Below the pieces are notes generated by a model that saw only the letters and a list, made by a program, of their open reading frames with translations, was not told the origin of the DNA and ran no database searches. Positions 40,392-50,011 of a stretch of DNA of 64,000 nt are shown piece by piece. A program made the translations under genes and the position numbers. The DNA is from Chitinivibrio alkaliphilus ACht1. GTDB taxonomy: Bacteria > Fibrobacterota > Chitinivibrionia > Chitinivibrionales > Chitinivibrionaceae. Each line of letters opens with the position of its first letter. Positions within the stretch are counted from its first letter, which is position 1. The stretch is from the NCBI RefSeq assembly GCF_000474745.1, contig NZ_ASJR01000009.1, positions 1 to 64,000 of the forward strand. The letters run 5' to 3'.

Positions 40392-43300
40392 ATGTTTCGC
40401 GCTGTTTGTATGGTGCTTTGTATACTTATGGGTACGTCATGGGCATCCTTTTATGAAGTGGTTGAACAAGAGCCCGGACGCATTGTCCTTGATTTTACCT
40501 TTCCTGCTCCTGTGGCTGAAGAGGATACGGCGGGCGAACGTCGGGTGACGGTGCCGGGTTTGGCCCCTGCAGTAGTGGGAGCACAAGAGGTTCCATACCC
40601 AACAAAACAACTCCTCCTCGCTCTTCCACAGCGCAAAGACGTGCGTACTACCATCGAAGTACATGCGGAGCACACCCACGGAATTACGGGAAACTTTCAA
40701 GATGATACAGGATATGTCGAGTTACCCGCCAATACTCATCTAGGGCCCATACAGCCCTTGGAAGTTCGCGGGGTACAGCTGCAGCAAATTCACCTTTCGC
40801 CCCTTTCCCATGACGGAAGCAGGTTGGCCCCCCGTTCGATACATACGGCACGGTTGACCATAGAGTATCCTCCAGTCACAGAGGGGCAACGACTTCGACA
40901 GAGCGATTACACAGCAGCGCTTGAGCGATCTGTTCTTAATCCTGCTGAGTTGCGTAAGAGTGCACAGCCTCCACGAACGCTCTCTGCAGATGCCGCGTCC
41001 GCCTATGTGTCACGTTCTGCCACTGTGTTGCATTTTGACCATGCGGTGGAAGGTAATCTGCGCCATGAAGAGTCGGCCGTGGAAGATATTAACGGTGTAT
41101 ATCGTTTCACCGGAGCCGAGCTTGCTGAACTGGGGGAGGCTATACCCATACAGAGTATCACCGTTCGTGCCTCCAATAGAGATGTGTACTCTGCGGAAAC
41201 TCCCGATTATGGCACTATTCCCCCCGGTCTTGTAGATGTTCCGGTGATCGTGCGTGATCATGGCAATACGGGGGTCCTTGACCCTGAGGATGAGGTTCTT
41301 ATTCCTGCATCTGCTGTAAATTATTGGGTGTGGCAGGATAATGACTGGACAATGAACTATAGTGATTTTGATTATCGTCGGCATTACTGGATTAGTATTG
41401 ATACGGGAACAGTGATGGAATCATACGAGCCATCCTCTGCGGAAAATTTTCCTGTGGAACAGACGGGACGGGTGTATCGGCGAATTCAACAGAGTAACGC
41501 CCTTGAGACGTTCGATTCAGATTATGCTACCACTACCTCCCGTCGGTGGAAATGGATTACCCTCAATCAGCGTAACAACAGTTTTCGTCAAAACCTTGCG
41601 GGACGAATCTTTTCTCCGGCGGAGGAGAGCTCCGTGGGGATTCGTTTTGGCTTTACTAATGTGGATGGCGCTCCGCGTTTCGGTCTCTCCTTTGGAGGAC
41701 GTGAGCGATCTCCCCTTTCGTGGTCCGCAGGAAAAACCCCTTGGTATGAAGCCGAAAGGGTGGATGAAGCAGAATCTTTTGAGATTACCTTTCAAAGTGG
41801 CGGGCTTGGTGATCTCTGGTATTATGATCTCTTTTATGATCGGAGCCTCGATTTTTCCGGGGCAAGCACCGCTCTCACCTTTTATTCGCGTGACGCCTCT
41901 TCTCAGGATGGGCAGAATCTCGTGGAGTATCAATTGGAGAATCTCCCTGAAGAGTATACCCTTGTACTGCGGGAAAACAGTCGTCACGGTACAATGAAGT
42001 ATGTGGGCAAACCAGATTCTGGCGGTACCTTTGCGTGGGCAGATACCCTTGGCATGGGGTTGAGTTATCATGTTATTCCGGAAAGCCAGTTTCTTCATAC
42101 GTCTCTTCAACGGTGGGAACCTCCTGCCATAACATCCCCCTTTCTTATTCCAAGCCTTCACACCCATCGTGGCGAGTATGACTATCTCATTCTTACCACA
42201 GAATATTTCTTTTCGGCCGCAGAGGAGTTGGCAGAACTCAAATCCAGTCAAGGTATGCGGCCGGGCATTATTCTTGTAGAAGATGTGTTCCGTGAATTTG
42301 CCGGAGGAATGCGGTGCCTTTCTGCCATACGAAATGGTTTGCGAAGGGCCTTTGAAGATCTCGGAATGCCATCGTATCTGACACTTTTTGGCATGGGGCA
42401 TTATGATTACAAGGGGTATCGTACAGACCTTGAAAACCATATACCTCCCTATATATCTCGTTCTTCCGGCTCTCCTGTCTTAGAAGAGTTTTTTGCCTAT
42501 TTTCGACCGGGGGATGAACCGGCCCAAGCCATAACGGGGGGGAATATTCCTGCGTTGTTTGTTGGGCGAATTCCCGCAAATACCCGTGCTGAAGCACGGG
42601 CATATCTTGCAAAATTACGGACCATGGATGAGAAACCTCCCGAGCAGGATGATTTTCGTAATCGGGTTCTCTTTCTCAGTGATGATGATACACAGCGTGG
42701 AAGACCGGAAAATCTCCAGCATTGGCAGCGGAATAATGTTTTTATGAATACCCTCGTGGCGCAGGATCCTGCCTATGATCTCTTTGAAGTCAATTTGCTT
42801 GAATATCCCTTTAGTAGCGGTTGGACAAAACCAGGGGCACGAAGCCGGTTTCTTTCAGAGCTTAATCGGGGTACCATGATGGTTTCTTTTTTCGGTCATG
42901 GGTCGAATCGTTCTCTCACCGATGAAGGAGTTTTCGGGGTAAATGATATTTCCTTTCTTGAAAATCGTGATAACTACTTTCTGTTTGCGGCCTTTTCTTG
43001 TGCGGTCTCGTTTTTTGACAATCACGAACTTGATAATATCGGAACGCGCTTAGTACTTGCCGATGGCCGGGGAGCGATTGCCACCATTGGAAGTACCCGA
43101 GAATCGTGGGATGGAAGTAATGCAACCTTTGGAAGACGTTTCAGTTCAGAGTTTTTTACCCCCCAAAATGGTGAGGTCCCTACGGTTGGCATGGCCTTTG
43201 GCCAAGCCCGTCTTGGGGCAAATCGGGTGGAGCGCTATGCCCTTATGGGAGACCCGGCGTATCGTCCGCATCGGGCGCGTCCCACGAGGGAGCTGGAGAT

Positions 43301-44516
43301 TACCACAGTGGATGGAGAACCAGCTCATTCAGCGGCAATTTTTGATCGCCTGACCCTTTCTGGAGAGCTCCCGCCAGAACTTGCCGGTGCTGAAAATGTA
43401 CGGTACACCGTGGCAGTCCAAAACCCCATCCGCCATGATGTTGAACGGAAAGATCTTGAAAGTGCCCCCGCTGATGTGATGCGTACATATGATCTTCCGG
43501 GAGATATGGTATACCATAGTGGCGTGTTGGAATCTCAGGGGACAGCCCTTTCCCATACTATACAAATTCCTCGCTCCATTGCTCAAGTTGATTCGGGGGT
43601 TACCTTCCGAATGTATGCGTGGGCCAAGGACTCCCCCGATGCATTTGTGGCGTATACGGATACGCTTCCTGTTGAGGGGATTAATTATGATGAAATAGAC
43701 ACAACCGATACAGAAGGCCCCTCCATAGCCGTACGATTGCAGCCGAGTCGTGATCGGGAAGATTTGGACCAAGGTTTTATCAGCGAATTTGTTGACGCTC
43801 CGGGAAGAATCGAAGTTGATGGTTTTGTTGGAGATACCTCCTTTCCAATTATTAATGATCGTGTGGATACAACAATACAGAATTTTATCTCTTTAGAGAT
43901 ACTTCTCCGGGACACTTCCGGAATTGATCATTTTTATGACAAACCCGGTGAAGGAATTACTGTGGAAATTGATGGGGTGATGCCCTTACGCGTGGTGAAT
44001 GAAGAGTTTGAGAGCCTTGCGGAAAGAGATCGAGCAGGGCGTATTACCCTCTTTGTTCCTCGAAGCTCTGTTCCTCGTACGGGGGAGTATACATTCACCG
44101 TGGCAGCTTCTGATATTTTGGGCAATCGGACACGGAAGCAGTATGTGTTAGATATTACCTCTCTTGAGGAAAGCCAGTATACCCTTGGCGAGGTGTTTGC
44201 CTTTCCTTCTCCGGCTCGCATGGGCGAGTATACACGTTTTTGGTTTAATGAGCCCGGACGCAATGTGGGGCGAACAGAGTTGAAAATTTTCACCTTGGAT
44301 GGTCAGCTGGTGAAACGTGTTCCCGATGTGCGCCCTGGATATACGTGGGATCTTCGTGATGCACGAGGAACCCCCCTGTCTCCAAATGTCTACCTCTACC
44401 GTCTGTATGCAGAACGGGACACGCGTGCTCGAGCAGAACGGTTTCATCGCAGTGACGCCTCCCGTGAGGATATTACCAGTTCTATCAAGAAATTGATTAT
44501 CTATCCTCCTCGATAA
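40392..44516 (+). CDS. C25 (gingipain-type) cysteine peptidase, PorU-like
   Basis: 1374 residues with a signal peptide (MFRAVCMVLCILMGTSWA). The long N-terminal half resembles the PorU leader region (YEVVEQEPGRIVLDF). The C25 catalytic domain carries His836 in SFFGHGSNRSLTDE and Cys870 in AAFSCAVSFFDN, with GRGAIATIGSTRESWDG after it. The C-terminal 90 residues form a FlgD/type IX-like sandwich (LKIFTLDGQLVKRVPD, SPNVYLYRLYAERD). PorU is the sortase that removes type IX sorting domains at the cell surface in Bacteroidota. A secreted C25 protease is the alternative. No other type IX gene lies in the window. AAGGAG precedes the ATG. Confidence 0.8.
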   Translation: MFRAVCMVLCILMGTSWASFYEVVEQEPGRIVLDFTFPAPVAEEDTAGERRVTVPGLAPAVVGAQEVPYPTKQLLLALPQRKDVRTTIEVHAEHTHGITGNFQDDTGYVELPANTHLGPIQPLEVRGVQLQQIHLSPLSHDGSRLAPRSIHTARLTIEYPPVTEGQRLRQSDYTAALERSVLNPAELRKSAQPPRTLSADAASAYVSRSATVLHFDHAVEGNLRHEESAVEDINGVYRFTGAELAELGEAIPIQSITVRASNRDVYSAETPDYGTIPPGLVDVPVIVRDHGNTGVLDPEDEVLIPASAVNYWVWQDNDWTMNYSDFDYRRHYWISIDTGTVMESYEPSSAENFPVEQTGRVYRRIQQSNALETFDSDYATTTSRRWKWITLNQRNNSFRQNLAGRIFSPAEESSVGIRFGFTNVDGAPRFGLSFGGRERSPLSWSAGKTPWYEAERVDEAESFEITFQSGGLGDLWYYDLFYDRSLDFSGASTALTFYSRDASSQDGQNLVEYQLENLPEEYTLVLRENSRHGTMKYVGKPDSGGTFAWADTLGMGLSYHVIPESQFLHTSLQRWEPPAITSPFLIPSLHTHRGEYDYLILTTEYFFSAAEELAELKSSQGMRPGIILVEDVFREFAGGMRCLSAIRNGLRRAFEDLGMPSYLTLFGMGHYDYKGYRTDLENHIPPYISRSSGSPVLEEFFAYFRPGDEPAQAITGGNIPALFVGRIPANTRAEARAYLAKLRTMDEKPPEQDDFRNRVLFLSDDDTQRGRPENLQHWQRNNVFMNTLVAQDPAYDLFEVNLLEYPFSSGWTKPGARSRFLSELNRGTMMVSFFGHGSNRSLTDEGVFGVNDISFLENRDNYFLFAAFSCAVSFFDNHELDNIGTRLVLADGRGAIATIGSTRESWDGSNATFGRRFSSEFFTPQNGEVPTVGMAFGQARLGANRVERYALMGDPAYRPHRARPTRELEITTVDGEPAHSAAIFDRLTLSGELPPELAGAENVRYTVAVQNPIRHDVERKDLESAPADVMRTYDLPGDMVYHSGVLESQGTALSHTIQIPRSIAQVDSGVTFRMYAWAKDSPDAFVAYTDTLPVEGINYDEIDTTDTEGPSIAVRLQPSRDREDLDQGFISEFVDAPGRIEVDGFVGDTSFPIINDRVDTTIQNFISLEILLRDTSGIDHFYDKPGEGITVEIDGVMPLRVVNEEFESLAERDRAGRITLFVPRSSVPRTGEYTFTVAASDILGNRTRKQYVLDITSLEESQYTLGEVFAFPSPARMGEYTRFWFNEPGRNVGRTELKIFTLDGQLVKRVPDVRPGYTWDLRDARGTPLSPNVYLYRLYAERDTRARAERFHRSDASREDITSSIKKLIIYPPR

Positions 44517-44962: not shown

Positions 44963-45056
44963 GAACATATAAGACGTGTGCTCAGCGGGGATCACTCCAA
45001 AAACAAAATCCCCGGTGTGAATAAATGCGGAGGCAGGAGCTCTCCGCATTTTTTTG
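44963..45056 (+). ncRNA. Candidate structured leader or small RNA (attenuator)
   Basis: Between the candidate promoter and a strong terminator lie about 94 bases with no reading frame. A 7-bp stem CGGGGAT/ATCCCCG (44986-44992 with 45008-45014) closes an A-rich loop containing CTCC, which could pair with GGAG in the terminator stem. The signalling operon starts 47 bases beyond the terminator without a visible promoter of its own. It could be an attenuator or riboswitch; it matches no class I can name. A free small RNA is the alternative. Confidence 0.35.
45023..45056 (+). terminator. Rho-independent terminator upstream of the signalling operon
   Basis: AATGCGGAG pairs with CTCCGCATT around a 9-base loop and runs into a stretch of seven Ts. 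It lies 47 bp before the zinc-ribbon gene, so it either ends a small RNA or controls readthrough into the operon. Confidence 0.8.
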
Positions 45057-45102
45057 TGGTTTTCCTTGTGTCCTATGGCTGCGGTTATCGTGAGGTGACC
45101 GG

Positions 45103-45402
45103 ATGACCGTGAGAAGTCAGCTGAAGACAGAGGAGTATCCTCCGTGCTATCAATGCATGATCATTCCCTTCCTGACACGAGCAATCTGCTCAAATACCTG
45201 GTGGACCCAAAGCAGTGGCGAGTCGTCCATGCTCTGGGGGGCATACGAATGGGTGTGCAAGAGTTGCGGGAACCGCAGTTGTGTGGTATGGGAAGATCGA
45301 GGAAGTAATTCCTCACTCTCCGATGAAAATGCTTGCAAAGAGCTGGGTTTCATTTTACCATGTGTGAGAATATCTTTTTTTGCAGGGGTATACACACCAT
45401 GA
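45103..45402 (+). CDS. Small zinc-ribbon protein at head of signalling operon
   Basis: 99 residues with two CxxC pairs, CYQC (about 15-18) and CKSC (about 54-57), spaced as in a zinc ribbon, plus WGAYEWVCKSCGNRSCVVWE around the second pair. I do not recognise a family. Evidence that it is real: GAGGTGA six bases before ATG, and a stop that overlaps the next gene's start as ATGA. Two other frames in this stretch also contain short open segments without good starts. It is the first gene of a five-gene operon, so a sensor or adaptor role is possible but not shown. Confidence 0.55.
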   Translation: MTVRSQLKTEEYPPCYQCMIIPFLTRAICSNTWWTQSSGESSMLWGAYEWVCKSCGNRSCVVWEDRGSNSSLSDENACKELGFILPCVRISFFAGVYTP

Positions 45403-46778
45403 ATGAGAAGTCTCGTATTGTACAGGAGCTTGCCTCTTTAGCTGCTTCCGGGGAGTTTCAGAGTTTTTACCAATCCGTTATTACGCAGTTGCCCCACACC
45501 CCGCCAGAGGTCGTTGAAGAAGTTGAGGTGGGCACGGTGCTTTCGCACTTTTCGGAAGATGAACAGCAGGCCATGCTTCGTGCCGTGGAGAATGTTTTTT
45601 CTGTACTGGTGCAATTTTATGGTTCTGAACACATTTCCGTGAAGGTTGCGGTGATTCGCCACATTGATACTCATCCCGACGCGGAGGCTCTTCCCCTATT
45701 TCAAGATCTTCTTGGAGATGATACAGAGTGTGATATTCTTATTACAAAGAAAATTGCGTCACGCAAAAGTGTAGATGCTTTTTCTACGCTTCTTGATATC
45801 ACGGGAAGTCCTAATGTATACGTACGTGATTTTGCGAAAACTCAGGTAAAAAGCACAATGAAAAAGGAGTATCATTCCTTGGTCAGTGCGCGTATAGAAG
45901 AACAGAAACATCGCCCCAATCAAGTTATTCCGCTCTTGGATATTGTTTCTGATTTAGGCATCGTTGACGCTGAGAAAACCGTAAGACGTATTGTACAAAG
46001 CGGGATTAAAAATCCGAATGTACGAGCCCTTGCTTATAAGTCATTAATTCGTCTCTCTCGGACGATGCATCATGGACTCATCCTTGATGGACTCTTTGAT
46101 ATTAGCGATGATGTTGCCTTTGCGGTTGCCCAAGGGGTTGAAGAGATTGACCATACACTCGTGACCGGGGTGGCAAATATGATATTGAGTTCTGTGTACT
46201 CTCCCCGTCGCCTTGCGGAAGTGCTTGTGTTTACAGATCAGTTGGAGTTCGTTGAGCGTCTTTATGAACATGCGTGCTTTCAAGAAGCCCTCAGTGACAT
46301 TCTCTCATACCAGGGGATGGAACAGTATCGGGAGAAGTATGAGGCTCGTTTGAATACAACCTTTCCCGTATGCACAAAACGTATTACCCATCGCAAATTG
46401 GCATGGGCGATAGATGACGAGCCTTTTATCCGCAAGCGGTATCTTCGTATGGGGGTTGGTCAGGGAATTCCCTTGCGGGTTTTTGAAGAACCGGAAAAGG
46501 CCTTGGATGCTTTGCAGGATGTTCGTCCCGATATTATTTTTGTAGATATGAATATGCCCACCATGAATGGTGTAGAGTTTACACGAAAGGTGCGGAATAT
46601 TGTCCATGACGGAGAAATTCCCGTCGTGTTAGTGACGACCCAGGATGATGTGCTTGAGGATACCATGGTTCAGGATAATCTTTTTCATACAATCATACAA
46701 AAACCTTTTGATGATGAAGAATTGCGTGACATACTCCGCCAAACGGGCACATCATCAATGACAGTAACAGGTAGGTAA
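45399..46778 (+). CDS. HEAT-repeat protein with C-terminal receiver domain
   Basis: 459 residues. About 1-330 are helical repeats of HEAT type (LRAVENVFSVLVQFYG, PNVRALAYKSLIRLSRTMHH). The C-terminal 120 residues are a receiver with acidic pair AIDDEP, phospho-acceptor Asp in IFVDMNMPTMNG, VLVTTQDD and Lys in IIQKPFDDEE. This order, protein-interaction repeats before a receiver, is unusual. The receiver is a plausible acceptor for the Hpt protein two genes downstream. The ATG at 45399 overlaps the zinc-ribbon stop; the frame open upstream to 45333 is ignored. Confidence 0.85.
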   Translation: MNEKSRIVQELASLAASGEFQSFYQSVITQLPHTPPEVVEEVEVGTVLSHFSEDEQQAMLRAVENVFSVLVQFYGSEHISVKVAVIRHIDTHPDAEALPLFQDLLGDDTECDILITKKIASRKSVDAFSTLLDITGSPNVYVRDFAKTQVKSTMKKEYHSLVSARIEEQKHRPNQVIPLLDIVSDLGIVDAEKTVRRIVQSGIKNPNVRALAYKSLIRLSRTMHHGLILDGLFDISDDVAFAVAQGVEEIDHTLVTGVANMILSSVYSPRRLAEVLVFTDQLEFVERLYEHACFQEALSDILSYQGMEQYREKYEARLNTTFPVCTKRITHRKLAWAIDDEPFIRKRYLRMGVGQGIPLRVFEEPEKALDALQDVRPDIIFVDMNMPTMNGVEFTRKVRNIVHDGEIPVVLVTTQDDVLEDTMVQDNLFHTIIQKPFDDEELRDILRQTGTSSMTVTGR

Positions 46779-46779
46779 T

Positions 46780-47058
46780 ATGGAAGCAGAATCAATTTAC
46801 ATTACAGAGGATATCGTTTCTTCCACCGTGGGTAATCTCCACGATGAGATTAGCGATATTATTGCGGATGGTGTAGAAAAAATTGTTTTAAATATGGAGG
46901 CTGTTGATATAATCGATTCCACAGGAATTGGGTTTATTATTAAAATACAAAACAGTTTGAAAAAGAATGGCGGAAGCCTTACCCTGGAGAATGTCAATTC
47001 GGACATTGTCAGAATGTTTAAGGTGATGCGCCTTGATAAACACATTCGGATTGTGTAA
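46780..47058 (+). CDS. STAS-domain anti-anti-sigma factor
   Basis: 92 residues, a single STAS domain like SpoIIAA/RsbV. The phosphorylatable serine is in IDSTGIGFIIKIQNSL. In its dephosphorylated form such a protein binds an anti-sigma kinase and releases the partner it held. Both the opposing enzymes, PP2C phosphatase and RsbW-like ATPase, are fused in the last gene of the operon. Confidence 0.9.
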   Translation: MEAESIYITEDIVSSTVGNLHDEISDIIADGVEKIVLNMEAVDIIDSTGIGFIIKIQNSLKKNGGSLTLENVNSDIVRMFKVMRLDKHIRIV

Positions 47059-47064
47059 ACCTCC

Positions 47065-47826
47065 ATGACTTTGGTGAGTGATGTAGAGGAGTTTCTACAA
47101 AGTACCGATGATAAGTTAGGGCGCATTCACGACCTTCTTTCGCAGCTGGAACACTGGATCGCGCAGTATCCCCATCGAGACCACTCCTGCCTTATCGAAG
47201 AGTTGTTTCGTGAGTTCCATAATATTAAAAGCATGGCCGCATTTTCAGGGTATCCTGAGATTGAAGAGATCTCACACTCCCTTGAAACCTTATTGGGGTT
47301 AGATAGAACGGGGCAGATATCTCTGAAAGAGCGGGAAATTGATCTTCTCTGTGAAGGGGTTTCCATAATGAGATCAATCCTCGATGATGAGGAGAGTATT
47401 GCCACATCCATCAAAACGTATCTGCATATCGTTGATGGATATGCTCATACCTCCACAGCCGGACTTATCACCATACCTCTTCCGCCGGACAATCGTAAAG
47501 AGTGGGTTTTATCGCGGGCTCTGTTCCGTCGTGCTCCTGAATTAGAGAAAAAAGCGGCAGAATACTATCTGCTTATGTACGATATGGTGCGAGATGTGCA
47601 GGAAAAAGGACTCTACCCCCACCGTCTCATAGAAGAGATTGCCGCCCTGTGTCATATTTTACATAGTGAGTTGGAAACCGAAGCCGTGGGTGATCTTACT
47701 GATGCGGGATTCTCCATGAGGCTCTATCTATTGTGCAGGACCTCCCTGCATCGTTCTATTCTTATGGAAGCACTTGATCTTACAGATGGGATGCTTCAAA
47801 AAATATCCACACCTTCAAATATATGA
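47065..47826 (+). CDS. Hpt-domain phosphotransfer protein
   Basis: 253 residues. The first 120 are a helical Hpt domain with the phospho-accepting His52 in REFHNIKSMAAFSG, matching the CheA P1/Hpt pattern HxxKS. The C-terminal half (about 140-253) is helical and unrecognised. No kinase ATPase domain is present. It lies between the STAS gene and a receiver-phosphatase gene and could shuttle phosphate between the two receivers in the operon. The histidine kinase must be elsewhere. Confidence 0.82.
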   Translation: MTLVSDVEEFLQSTDDKLGRIHDLLSQLEHWIAQYPHRDHSCLIEELFREFHNIKSMAAFSGYPEIEEISHSLETLLGLDRTGQISLKEREIDLLCEGVSIMRSILDDEESIATSIKTYLHIVDGYAHTSTAGLITIPLPPDNRKEWVLSRALFRRAPELEKKAAEYYLLMYDMVRDVQEKGLYPHRLIEEIAALCHILHSELETEAVGDLTDAGFSMRLYLLCRTSLHRSILMEALDLTDGMLQKISTPSNI

Positions 47827-47836
47827 GAGTTATTGT

Positions 47837-49396
47837 ATGAATCAAAAAGTCCTCGTTGTGGATGATCTACCGGTAAATACCCGTGTCTTGAGCTCAATTC
47901 TGCAAACCAATGGGTATGATGTTCAAGCGGCACACTCTGGGAAAGAAGCCGTAGAGTATGCTCAGAACAACACGTTCCACTGCATCCTTCTTGATATTGT
48001 CATGCCTGGAATGGATGGATTTGAGGTTATTCGCCGCTTAAAGGCCATTCCTGAGACTGCGGAAATCCCCGTCATCTTTATTACAGGTAAAGAGGGTGCT
48101 GAGTCTTTGGCTAAGGGCTTTGAACTGGGTGCCGTTGATTATATCACCAAACCCTTTAATAAGATAGAGGTGCTTGCTCGCTTGAAAGCGCATATTCGAC
48201 TCTACTCTACTTTACAATCCCTGGTTAATTCACAGGCAGATATTCTTACACAGATCCATGATGCACAAAATTCACTCTTAAAACAACCAGAAGATCTTGA
48301 AAGCGCCTGCTTTGCCGTTCTCTATGAGTCTCTTCACGCCGCAGGGGGAGACATTTACGATATTATACAAATTAATGATACCATGTACGGGTATTTTGTG
48401 GGGGACTTTGCCGGGCATAAAATTTCAACGGGGTTTCTTACTTCCTCGGTAAAGGCGCTTCTTCACCAGAATTGCAATGCCTACACCTCTCCTGTGGAGA
48501 GCATGCGCATGATTAACTCTGTCTTGGTGAAGCTGATGAACAGCGGCCAGTATATGACTGGATGTTATGCCTTGCTCGATAGGCTAAAATATAAACTGAC
48601 CGTGGTAAGCATGGGGCATCCTCCGCTCATATTCATTCCCCGCTACGGAAATGTCCGCGAGATTGGAAAAGGAGGAGATATCCTGGGGGTGTTTGATCAA
48701 GCAGTTTTCCGGAAAATTACCATTGATATGTATCCGGGAGATCGTGTATTGCTCTACACGGATGGCTTGATTGAGGGGGAGCGAGTGTGGAGCGCGGAAA
48801 TTCCCGAACTCGTATCTACGGTGCGAGCTCTTCGTACAATAGAGGACCGTGATACCTTTATTTCTCGTTTGTATGAAGCGACACAAGAGCAGCGTGGCGA
48901 AGTGGATGATGATGTGATGGTGCTGCTTGCGGACTTTCCCGGTACGCCACCAGATATGGATCGCTCAGAAGAGAATGGAGATATACACTACCGTTTCAGT
49001 GGGCTACGACGGTTTATCGATCCCATTATTGAGGCCTTGATAGCTGATACGTGCGAAATTGTTCCTGCGGGACACCAGTATGGGTTAAAACTTGTGTTGT
49101 ATGAAGCATTGGGTAATGCGGTTATTCATGGTGCTCGGGAGCAGGCTGAGAAAGATATTACCGTACGCCTTTCCATGAATGAAAAGAAGATTGAGGTTGA
49201 AATTGCTGACGGCGGGAGAGGCTTTGATTGGCAGGAGTATTGTGATGGCTTGCGTGATAGTTTTCATGATGAATACGACATGCCCCATCTGCAACTTTCC
49301 GGACGGGGCATAAAAACGTTTTGGGATTATGGGTACGACTTTACCTACAACGATCAAGGCAATACCGTAACCCTATGGAAGAGCTTTTCTTCCTAG
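47837..49396 (+). CDS. REC-PP2C-HATPase partner-switching protein
   Basis: 519 residues in three domains. REC (1-120): VLVVDDLPVN, Asp in ILLDIVMPGMDG, FITGKE, YITKPFNK. A SpoIIE/RsbU-type PP2C phosphatase (about 150-370) has metal ligands in GGDIYDI, VGDFAGHKISTGF, YTDGLIEGE and DDDVMVLLAD. A C-terminal RsbW-like ATPase (about 390-515) has EALGNAVIHGA, DGGRGFDW and LSGRGIKTF. Phosphatase and opposing kinase in one chain, both under a receiver, would set the phosphorylation of the STAS protein. ATG 47837 is chosen; the frame is open from 47774 inside the Hpt gene. Confidence 0.92.
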   Translation: MNQKVLVVDDLPVNTRVLSSILQTNGYDVQAAHSGKEAVEYAQNNTFHCILLDIVMPGMDGFEVIRRLKAIPETAEIPVIFITGKEGAESLAKGFELGAVDYITKPFNKIEVLARLKAHIRLYSTLQSLVNSQADILTQIHDAQNSLLKQPEDLESACFAVLYESLHAAGGDIYDIIQINDTMYGYFVGDFAGHKISTGFLTSSVKALLHQNCNAYTSPVESMRMINSVLVKLMNSGQYMTGCYALLDRLKYKLTVVSMGHPPLIFIPRYGNVREIGKGGDILGVFDQAVFRKITIDMYPGDRVLLYTDGLIEGERVWSAEIPELVSTVRALRTIEDRDTFISRLYEATQEQRGEVDDDVMVLLADFPGTPPDMDRSEENGDIHYRFSGLRRFIDPIIEALIADTCEIVPAGHQYGLKLVLYEALGNAVIHGAREQAEKDITVRLSMNEKKIEVEIADGGRGFDWQEYCDGLRDSFHDEYDMPHLQLSGRGIKTFWDYGYDFTYNDQGNTVTLWKSFSS

Positions 49397-49398
49397 GG

Positions 49399-49839
49399 TT
49401 ATACGTCAAACTCATCTGACATGTCTATTTCCGTTGTTTCCCCACCGGCTTTCATATCTTCAATCAAGTCTTCCCGACCGATATTTTTAAGATGGCGAAC
49501 CCGTCGATACTCGCTGCGATGTTTTGTGCAATATTTAGGGTATACGTACTGTCGTGGAAATATCTTAATCTCAAATTTTTCATTGCATCCATGGAGAGCA
49601 CAAGTTGACTCCATGGTCATGACTTCTGTATATGAATGTTTGATTGTTTGATTTTTCTTGTTAATATCTTCCGGGGCGGTACGCTTACGAATACGATATT
49701 TGTCTTTCCTGTGTTCTTCGCAATATTTTGAAATATGAATCCCGAAAAAAAGCTTGCCGCATACGTTGCCATCTTTATCTACGTATTGACATCGTTTCTC
49801 TCGACGCTTCTGTTTCCGTCTGTTTTTTGGTAACTGCAT
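49399..49839 (-). CDS. Tandem zinc-finger-like basic protein
   Basis: 146 residues, very basic. Two related modules are visible: C17-x9-C27-x12-C40-x2-H43 (ending KYCEEHR) and C80-x4-C85-x18-C104-x2-H107 (ending KYCTKHR). The shared KYCxxHR suggests an internal duplication of a Cys3His zinc site. RNA or DNA binding is plausible from charge, but I do not recognise a family. ATG 49839 follows GAGGTGA; an in-frame ATG at 49866 lacks a ribosome site. It converges on the signalling operon, ending two bases from it. Confidence 0.7.
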   Translation of the reverse strand: MQLPKNRRKQKRREKRCQYVDKDGNVCGKLFFGIHISKYCEEHRKDKYRIRKRTAPEDINKKNQTIKHSYTEVMTMESTCALHGCNEKFEIKIFPRQYVYPKYCTKHRSEYRRVRHLKNIGREDLIEDMKAGGETTEIDMSDEFDV

Positions 49840-50011
49840 ACATTCACCTCTGTAAGAAAAGTACACCTTAATATAACAAAAAAAGAGTGTTTTCCGACAG
49901 GTAAATAATCAGAGGTGCTCTGCAAGATCTACGGAATAAACAGCCCCACAGGCTTTTCGAACTCGGAGAAAGAATTGTTGTTGGTTTTCGCAATGGTAAC
50001 TTTTTTGTAAA

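Follow-up and report, generated by a model that had tools for sequence, protein, structure and literature searches.

Does a phosphorelay encoded without a histidine kinase stand alone, or is its kinase found elsewhere in the genome? The question is raised by a short run of genes in Chitinivibrio alkaliphilus ACht1 (Fibrobacterota), located in the window (the whole stretch of 64,000 nucleotides that was analysed, 46.9% G+C, from the start of contig NZ_ASJR01000009.1, here C9). The run encodes two receivers (REC), a phosphotransfer (Hpt) protein, a STAS protein and a PP2C phosphatase fused to an RsbW-like ATPase. In a preliminary description it had been read as a tight operon of five genes, headed by a zinc ribbon protein, in which phosphate passes from the Hpt to the receivers and sets the state of the STAS protein.

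Extent and content of the run

Pfam searches bore out the REC, STAS and Hpt calls, as well as the combination of REC, SpoIIE/PP2C and HATPase_c_2 domains in one chain. These domains fall on four + strand genes at 45399-49396, separated by intergenic gaps of 1, 6 and 10 nt, and a residue check found the catalytic residues intact across the four proteins.

45399..46778, + strand: protein of 459 aa with a HEAT-like helical N-terminus and a C-terminal REC (D383); Pfam REC 6e-17
46780..47058, + strand: STAS protein of the anti-anti-sigma type, 92 aa, predicted phospho-acceptor Ser47; Pfam 5e-15
47065..47826, + strand: apparent free-standing CheA N-terminus of 253 aa, with P1 (Hpt domain, His52) and the P2-position region; Pfam Hpt 3e-12
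47837..49396, + strand: REC (D53), PP2C/SpoIIE phosphatase and RsbW-like HATPase_c_2, 519 aa; Pfam 6e-30, 2e-29 and 5e-11

The first protein had been proposed to be a HEAT-REC fusion. Its receiver is clear, with residues D339/D340/D383/T413-T414/K435; the HEAT_2 match is weak (1e-4, below the Pfam cut-off) and recurs in the orthologue, and a single-sequence AlphaFold model (pLDDT 46) was too poor to use. A search of 168 genomes from the phylum detected this HEAT-like-REC protein in only three, namely the present one and two of the same family (G001 and G003). The STAS protein is 53% identical to the G001 copy, and D46, S47 and G49 are invariant in eight sequences from homologous clusters. The last protein carries the REC residues D9/D10/D53/T83/K105, the PP2C metal-binding aspartates D172/D175/D190/D309/D357-D358 and the ATPase residues E423/N427/D458/G460/G489/G491 (N, G1 and G2 boxes), and its full-length identity is 53% to G001 and 51% to G003. 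When genome contigs were scanned with this protein, the matches were mostly REC-only; a full-length match in Vibrio reached 26% identity, and the ORFs adjoining it comprised no che or STAS homologue.

Three features precede or overlap the start of the run:

45023..45051, + strand: terminator-like hairpin upstream of the run, 11 pairs then a T run, from a consensus scan
45067..45230, + strand: putative remnant of a decayed group II intron, with D1D4-1 RNA and then the first part of a reverse-transcriptase ORF, from Rfam and colinearity
45103..45402, + strand: ORF1, the supposed zinc ribbon, assessed by codon score, family searches and relatives

ORF1 has two CxxC pairs and its end overlaps the next start as ATGA, as would fit a self-standing five-gene operon with the zinc ribbon protein as a component. 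That version is nevertheless very improbable. The codon score of ORF1 (-0.20 bits per codon) is that of non-coding sequence, genes of the same window scoring 0.22 ± 0.10 and false frames -0.24 ± 0.14; no Pfam or NCBIfam family matched it, and it overlaps the putative intron remnant. In 60 relatives there was no convincing homologue, the three stray hits having E values between 5e-4 and 6e-3 and covering 28-36 aa in open frames of less than 50 aa. On these grounds ORF1 was rejected as a gene and, as judged from its sequence, is probably a chance ORF. The ATGA is present as letters and does not join two genes; the non-coding signature, the lack of a homologue and the intron remnant together leave a run of four genes, not five.

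ORF1 most likely overlies a decayed group II intron fragment, the match to Rfam RF01998 at 45079-45156 (25.8 bits, E 0.0086) being below the gathering score of 35. Elsewhere in this genome, contig C24 carries an apparently full intron encoding a 436-aa reverse transcriptase (L202/L203; RF02001 138.8 bits, RF01998 53.8 bits). The fragment in the window is colinear with it, also over the beginning of the reverse-transcriptase ORF, and the local alignment of the two scores 32; the highest score obtained from 500 shuffles was 20. An involvement of the intron in moving the gene block is a guess. A riboswitch in the leader was considered and rejected, as Rfam gave the intron fragment only and the folding z was -1.8 versus shuffles; the leader DNA had no match in a plasmid collection. 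The terminator scan of the region returned 9 hits versus 4.0 ± 2.1 expected, so that the hairpin is only moderately supported. The run is bordered by a 1374-aa ORF ending just upstream (40392-44516), which by eye resembles a large exported C25-type peptidase, and by a 155-aa ORF right after it (49399-49866, - strand) with several Cys/His pairs.

The Hpt protein resembles the N-terminus of CheA

Pfam and the position of His52 agree with the presence of an Hpt domain in the third protein (P0004). The preliminary description had, however, taken it for a plain Hpt and missed its CheA character, which emerges from family models, PDB sequence and fold comparisons and alignment. NCBIfam gives CheA models only. 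Among proteins of solved structure, the relatives found by PDB sequence search at E <= 3e-5 are CheA P1 domains and BRIC1, which contains two P1-like stretches. A single-sequence AlphaFold prediction had a pLDDT of 56 overall and roughly 70-83 over most of P1; this low-confidence model was used for the P1 part only, which matches CheA P1 crystal structures (TM 0.85 to 1i5n). The protein aligns end to end with CheA residues 1-250, and its H52, K55, H71 and E74 correspond to residues conserved in all 26 CheAs compared (26/26). In a Pfam search of its 253 aa, the P3 dimerisation, P4 kinase and P5 CheW-like domains were absent. The second half aligns with the P2-position region of CheAs and gave no convincing Pfam or PDB profile match, and 'P2' is used here for the position only. 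On sequence and fold criteria, P0004 corresponds to the first ~250 residues of a CheA, encoded as a separate protein.

The run is part of a chemosensory cluster in relatives

In G001, one run (L120) encodes HEAT-like-REC, STAS, CheA (1057 aa), an MCP-hemerythrin, CheW, CheB, CheR and REC-PP2C-HATPase, in this order, and combines a chemosensory cluster with a partner-switch output. G003 possesses the same gene set across two contigs, CheA and HEAT-like-REC being cut by contig ends. In both genomes, the slot between STAS and REC-PP2C-HATPase is filled by CheA, then MCP, CheW, CheB and CheR, a whole set that the preliminary description did not include. The gene order that it had proposed to look for is present in G001 and, across split contigs, in G003, with a full CheA and further che genes in place of the lone Hpt.

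More distant arrangements share part of this layout. In four genomes of another family (L123, L124, L125 and L128, family f4), a gene for a REC-PP2C protein without HATPase precedes those for STAS and CheA; MCP and CheB lie downstream, as does CheR in the three fetched stretches long enough to include it. STAS also adjoins CheA in G029 and G008, as far as the contigs extend. Taken over the four f4 loci, L187 and L188, a STAS-CheA cluster recurs in other genomes of the order, with MCP, CheB and CheR downstream where the stretch reaches; the PP2C ORF of L188 is truncated by a contig end. An unfused counterpart of the phosphatase-kinase pair was observed on contig C774 of G015 (L129), where a separate RsbW-like ATPase ORF (1092-1505) comes after a PP2C-bearing ORF (1541-2812).

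For the origin of P0004, its position between STAS and REC-PP2C-HATPase is a stronger argument than the tree. The protein is highly diverged (end branch 5.7) and its grouping near the G001 CheA is not firmly supported, with possible long-branch effects; because of this long branch, the tree is not decisive on the exact parentage, and the protein may stem from another CheA or be a relaxed fragment.

A CheA on the same contig

The claim that two receivers and an Hpt are present and a histidine kinase is lacking holds for the operon only, since a CheA is encoded further along the contig:

C9:79257-82322: CheA of 1021 aa
C9:77.7-79.2 and 82.3-83.6 kb (L126 13655-15247 and 18322-19578): MCP-hemerythrins, with C-terminal hemerythrin, flanking CheA

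These genes belong to a cluster at C9:75357-83578 which encodes CheA, the two MCP-hemerythrins, CheB and CheR, is homologous to the G001 set and lies about 26 kb downstream of the run, in the opposite reading direction. Among its ORFs (75-84 kb), no CheW was found. CheX/CheY homologues are located not far from it, and their G001 counterparts lie upstream of HEAT-like-REC. The CheA is flanked by two MCP-hemerythrins and the G001 cluster has one such MCP. In a tree of the CheA core, this CheA is sister to that of G001 (82/77), inside a clade supported at 100/99. Within the window, che genes do not stand in the same run as the partner switch. Given the homologous che genes 26 kb downstream on the same contig, the kinase missing from the operon is probably the CheA at 79257-82322.

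This CheA retains its own P1, and the free P1 is not strictly needed. Identities between the free protein and the CheA of the same genome gave no clear signal either way on subfunctionalisation of P1 and P2. P0004 could even be what remains of a CheA that was destroyed as the cluster broke up, doing little while another donor drives D53. The redundant P1 of CheA, the very long branch of P0004 and the fact that no second genome was found with the truncated form would fit such a history. We consider it quite unlikely, as the frame is open over 253 codons with a gene-like codon score (0.18 versus 0.22 ± 0.10), the gaps to the neighbours are only 6 and 10 nt, and all four P1 residues are retained.

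Comparison with known systems

The preliminary description knew of no such gene set. In Pseudomonas aeruginosa, HptB-HsbR-HsbA (PA3345-PA3347) are an Hpt protein, a REC-phosphatase-kinase regulator and a STAS protein encoded in one operon (PMC5085249, PMC6482189). The HsbA-type STAS anti-anti-sigma protein is phosphorylated on a single serine (PMC5085249, PMC6482189), and HsbR acts as a phosphatase when phosphorylated and as a kinase when unphosphorylated (PMC5085249). Here too, REC, PP2C and RsbW-like kinase domains form one chain and a STAS protein with a conserved serine is adjacent. The proposed logic from Hpt to receivers to STAS matches this pathway and the domain and residue evidence; what it lacked was the identity of the Hpt as a CheA N-terminus. 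Unlike in Pseudomonas, the Hpt is a CheA P1 and P2-position piece of 253 aa, a HEAT-like-REC protein is added and the cluster of relatives includes a whole che set.

The likeness raises the alternative of an independent HptB-type relay, in which orphan hybrid histidine kinases elsewhere, rather than the CheA at 80 kb, would load the Hpt and, through it, the receivers and the STAS switch. Pseudomonas HptB is indeed fed by three unlinked hybrid kinases (PMC5085249), the present genome has 65 REC matches in open frames, several of them long, and the operon is devoid of che core genes. In Pfam, NCBIfam, PDB sequence and fold comparisons, however, the 253-aa protein matches CheA P1 and not other Hpt proteins, its best relatives being CheA P1 domains, and in relatives its slot is filled by a complete CheA with a kinase domain. 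We regard an HptB-type relay as unlikely.

A link between chemosensory and partner-switch genes is known from the che1 locus of Shewanella oneidensis, which carries CheA, CheW, CheB, CheR and MCP together with CrsR-CrsA and for which control of RpoS was proposed (PMC9855816, PMC6482189). CrsR has phosphatase and anti-sigma/kinase domains and CrsA is the anti-sigma antagonist (PMC9855816, PMC6482189); the CrsR ATPase domain itself holds the sigma factor (PMC6482189). Partner-switch genes within a che locus are also what the relatives examined here display. The reported content of che1 differs in having CheD, CheY and the receptor Aer2, with neither a HEAT-REC protein nor a split P1, whereas here the receptors are MCP-hemerythrins and a distance of 26 kb separates the two halves.

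Hpt genes separate from cheA have been reported, as for CheA3/CheA4 of Rhodobacter, and a liberated Hpt is functional (PMC10782961), which provides a precedent for phosphorylation of a free P1 in trans. As in those systems, P1 is encoded apart from the kinase-bearing CheA; there, however, the Hpt replaces a missing P1 within the same operon, while the present CheA retains its P1, and it is the additional P1 that lies beside a partner switch. In Myxococcus xanthus, the HEAT-repeat protein Cpc7 works together with CheY7, a CheY-like receiver belonging to a che system (PMC11514114). This likeness is drawn by description, and here the HEAT-like part and the receiver form one chain.

The split itself is unusual, with a free P1 and P2-position protein beside a partner switch, a CheA elsewhere that has its own P1, and the rare HEAT-like-REC protein. 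In the literature searched, we found no description of this combination with a P1-keeping CheA and HEAT-like-REC, which we regard as a variant of the known systems.

A proposed pathway

We favour, as fairly probable, a reading in which the four genes form the output arm of a CheA chemosensory pathway ending in a partner switch, split from its receptor and kinase arm. We infer the following steps, from cue to final target. Oxygen or redox state would be the cue for the soluble MCP-hemerythrins, which would control the CheA of the same contig. This kinase would phosphorylate the free P1 protein in trans on His52; the P1 of CheA itself or its C-terminal REC could be alternative donors. From the free P1 protein, phosphate may pass to two receiver aspartates, D53 in REC-PP2C-HATPase and D383 in HEAT-like-REC. 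Phosphorylation of D53 would decide whether REC-PP2C-HATPase acts on Ser47 of STAS as a phosphatase or as a kinase, and the state of STAS may determine whether it binds or releases an anti-sigma partner or another target. A candidate for this partner is the HATPase domain itself, as in CrsR. HEAT-like-REC might be a phosphate sink, a scaffold or a second output.

A bolder version, which we put forward tentatively and as somewhat doubtful, is that the phospho-acceptor of CheA was carved out as a free shuttle, so that signals would travel from a hemerythrin-receptor array through a diffusible P1 and P2-position protein to a distant partner switch, with HEAT-like-REC as a dedicated adaptor. The system lends itself naturally to testing a shuttle role for a free CheA P1.

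If the favoured pathway is correct, the run and the che cluster together probably respond to oxygen or a similar cue by turning a regulator on or off, and the link between chemosensory array and partner switch known from Shewanella would extend to a distant lineage, the Fibrobacterota. The relatives, with the operon whole, without the kinase domain or split, illustrate the rearrangements open to such a pathway. Possible partners exist in the genome (2.59 Mb, 99 contigs), given nine STAS matches (seven above the Pfam cut-off), ten HATPase_c_2 matches (five above it) and six sigma-70-family matches. A second partner-switch locus was also observed at C14:17.5-19.1 kb (L189 3476-5072), where an RsbW-like ATPase, a STAS-ATPase fusion and a stand-alone STAS protein are encoded.
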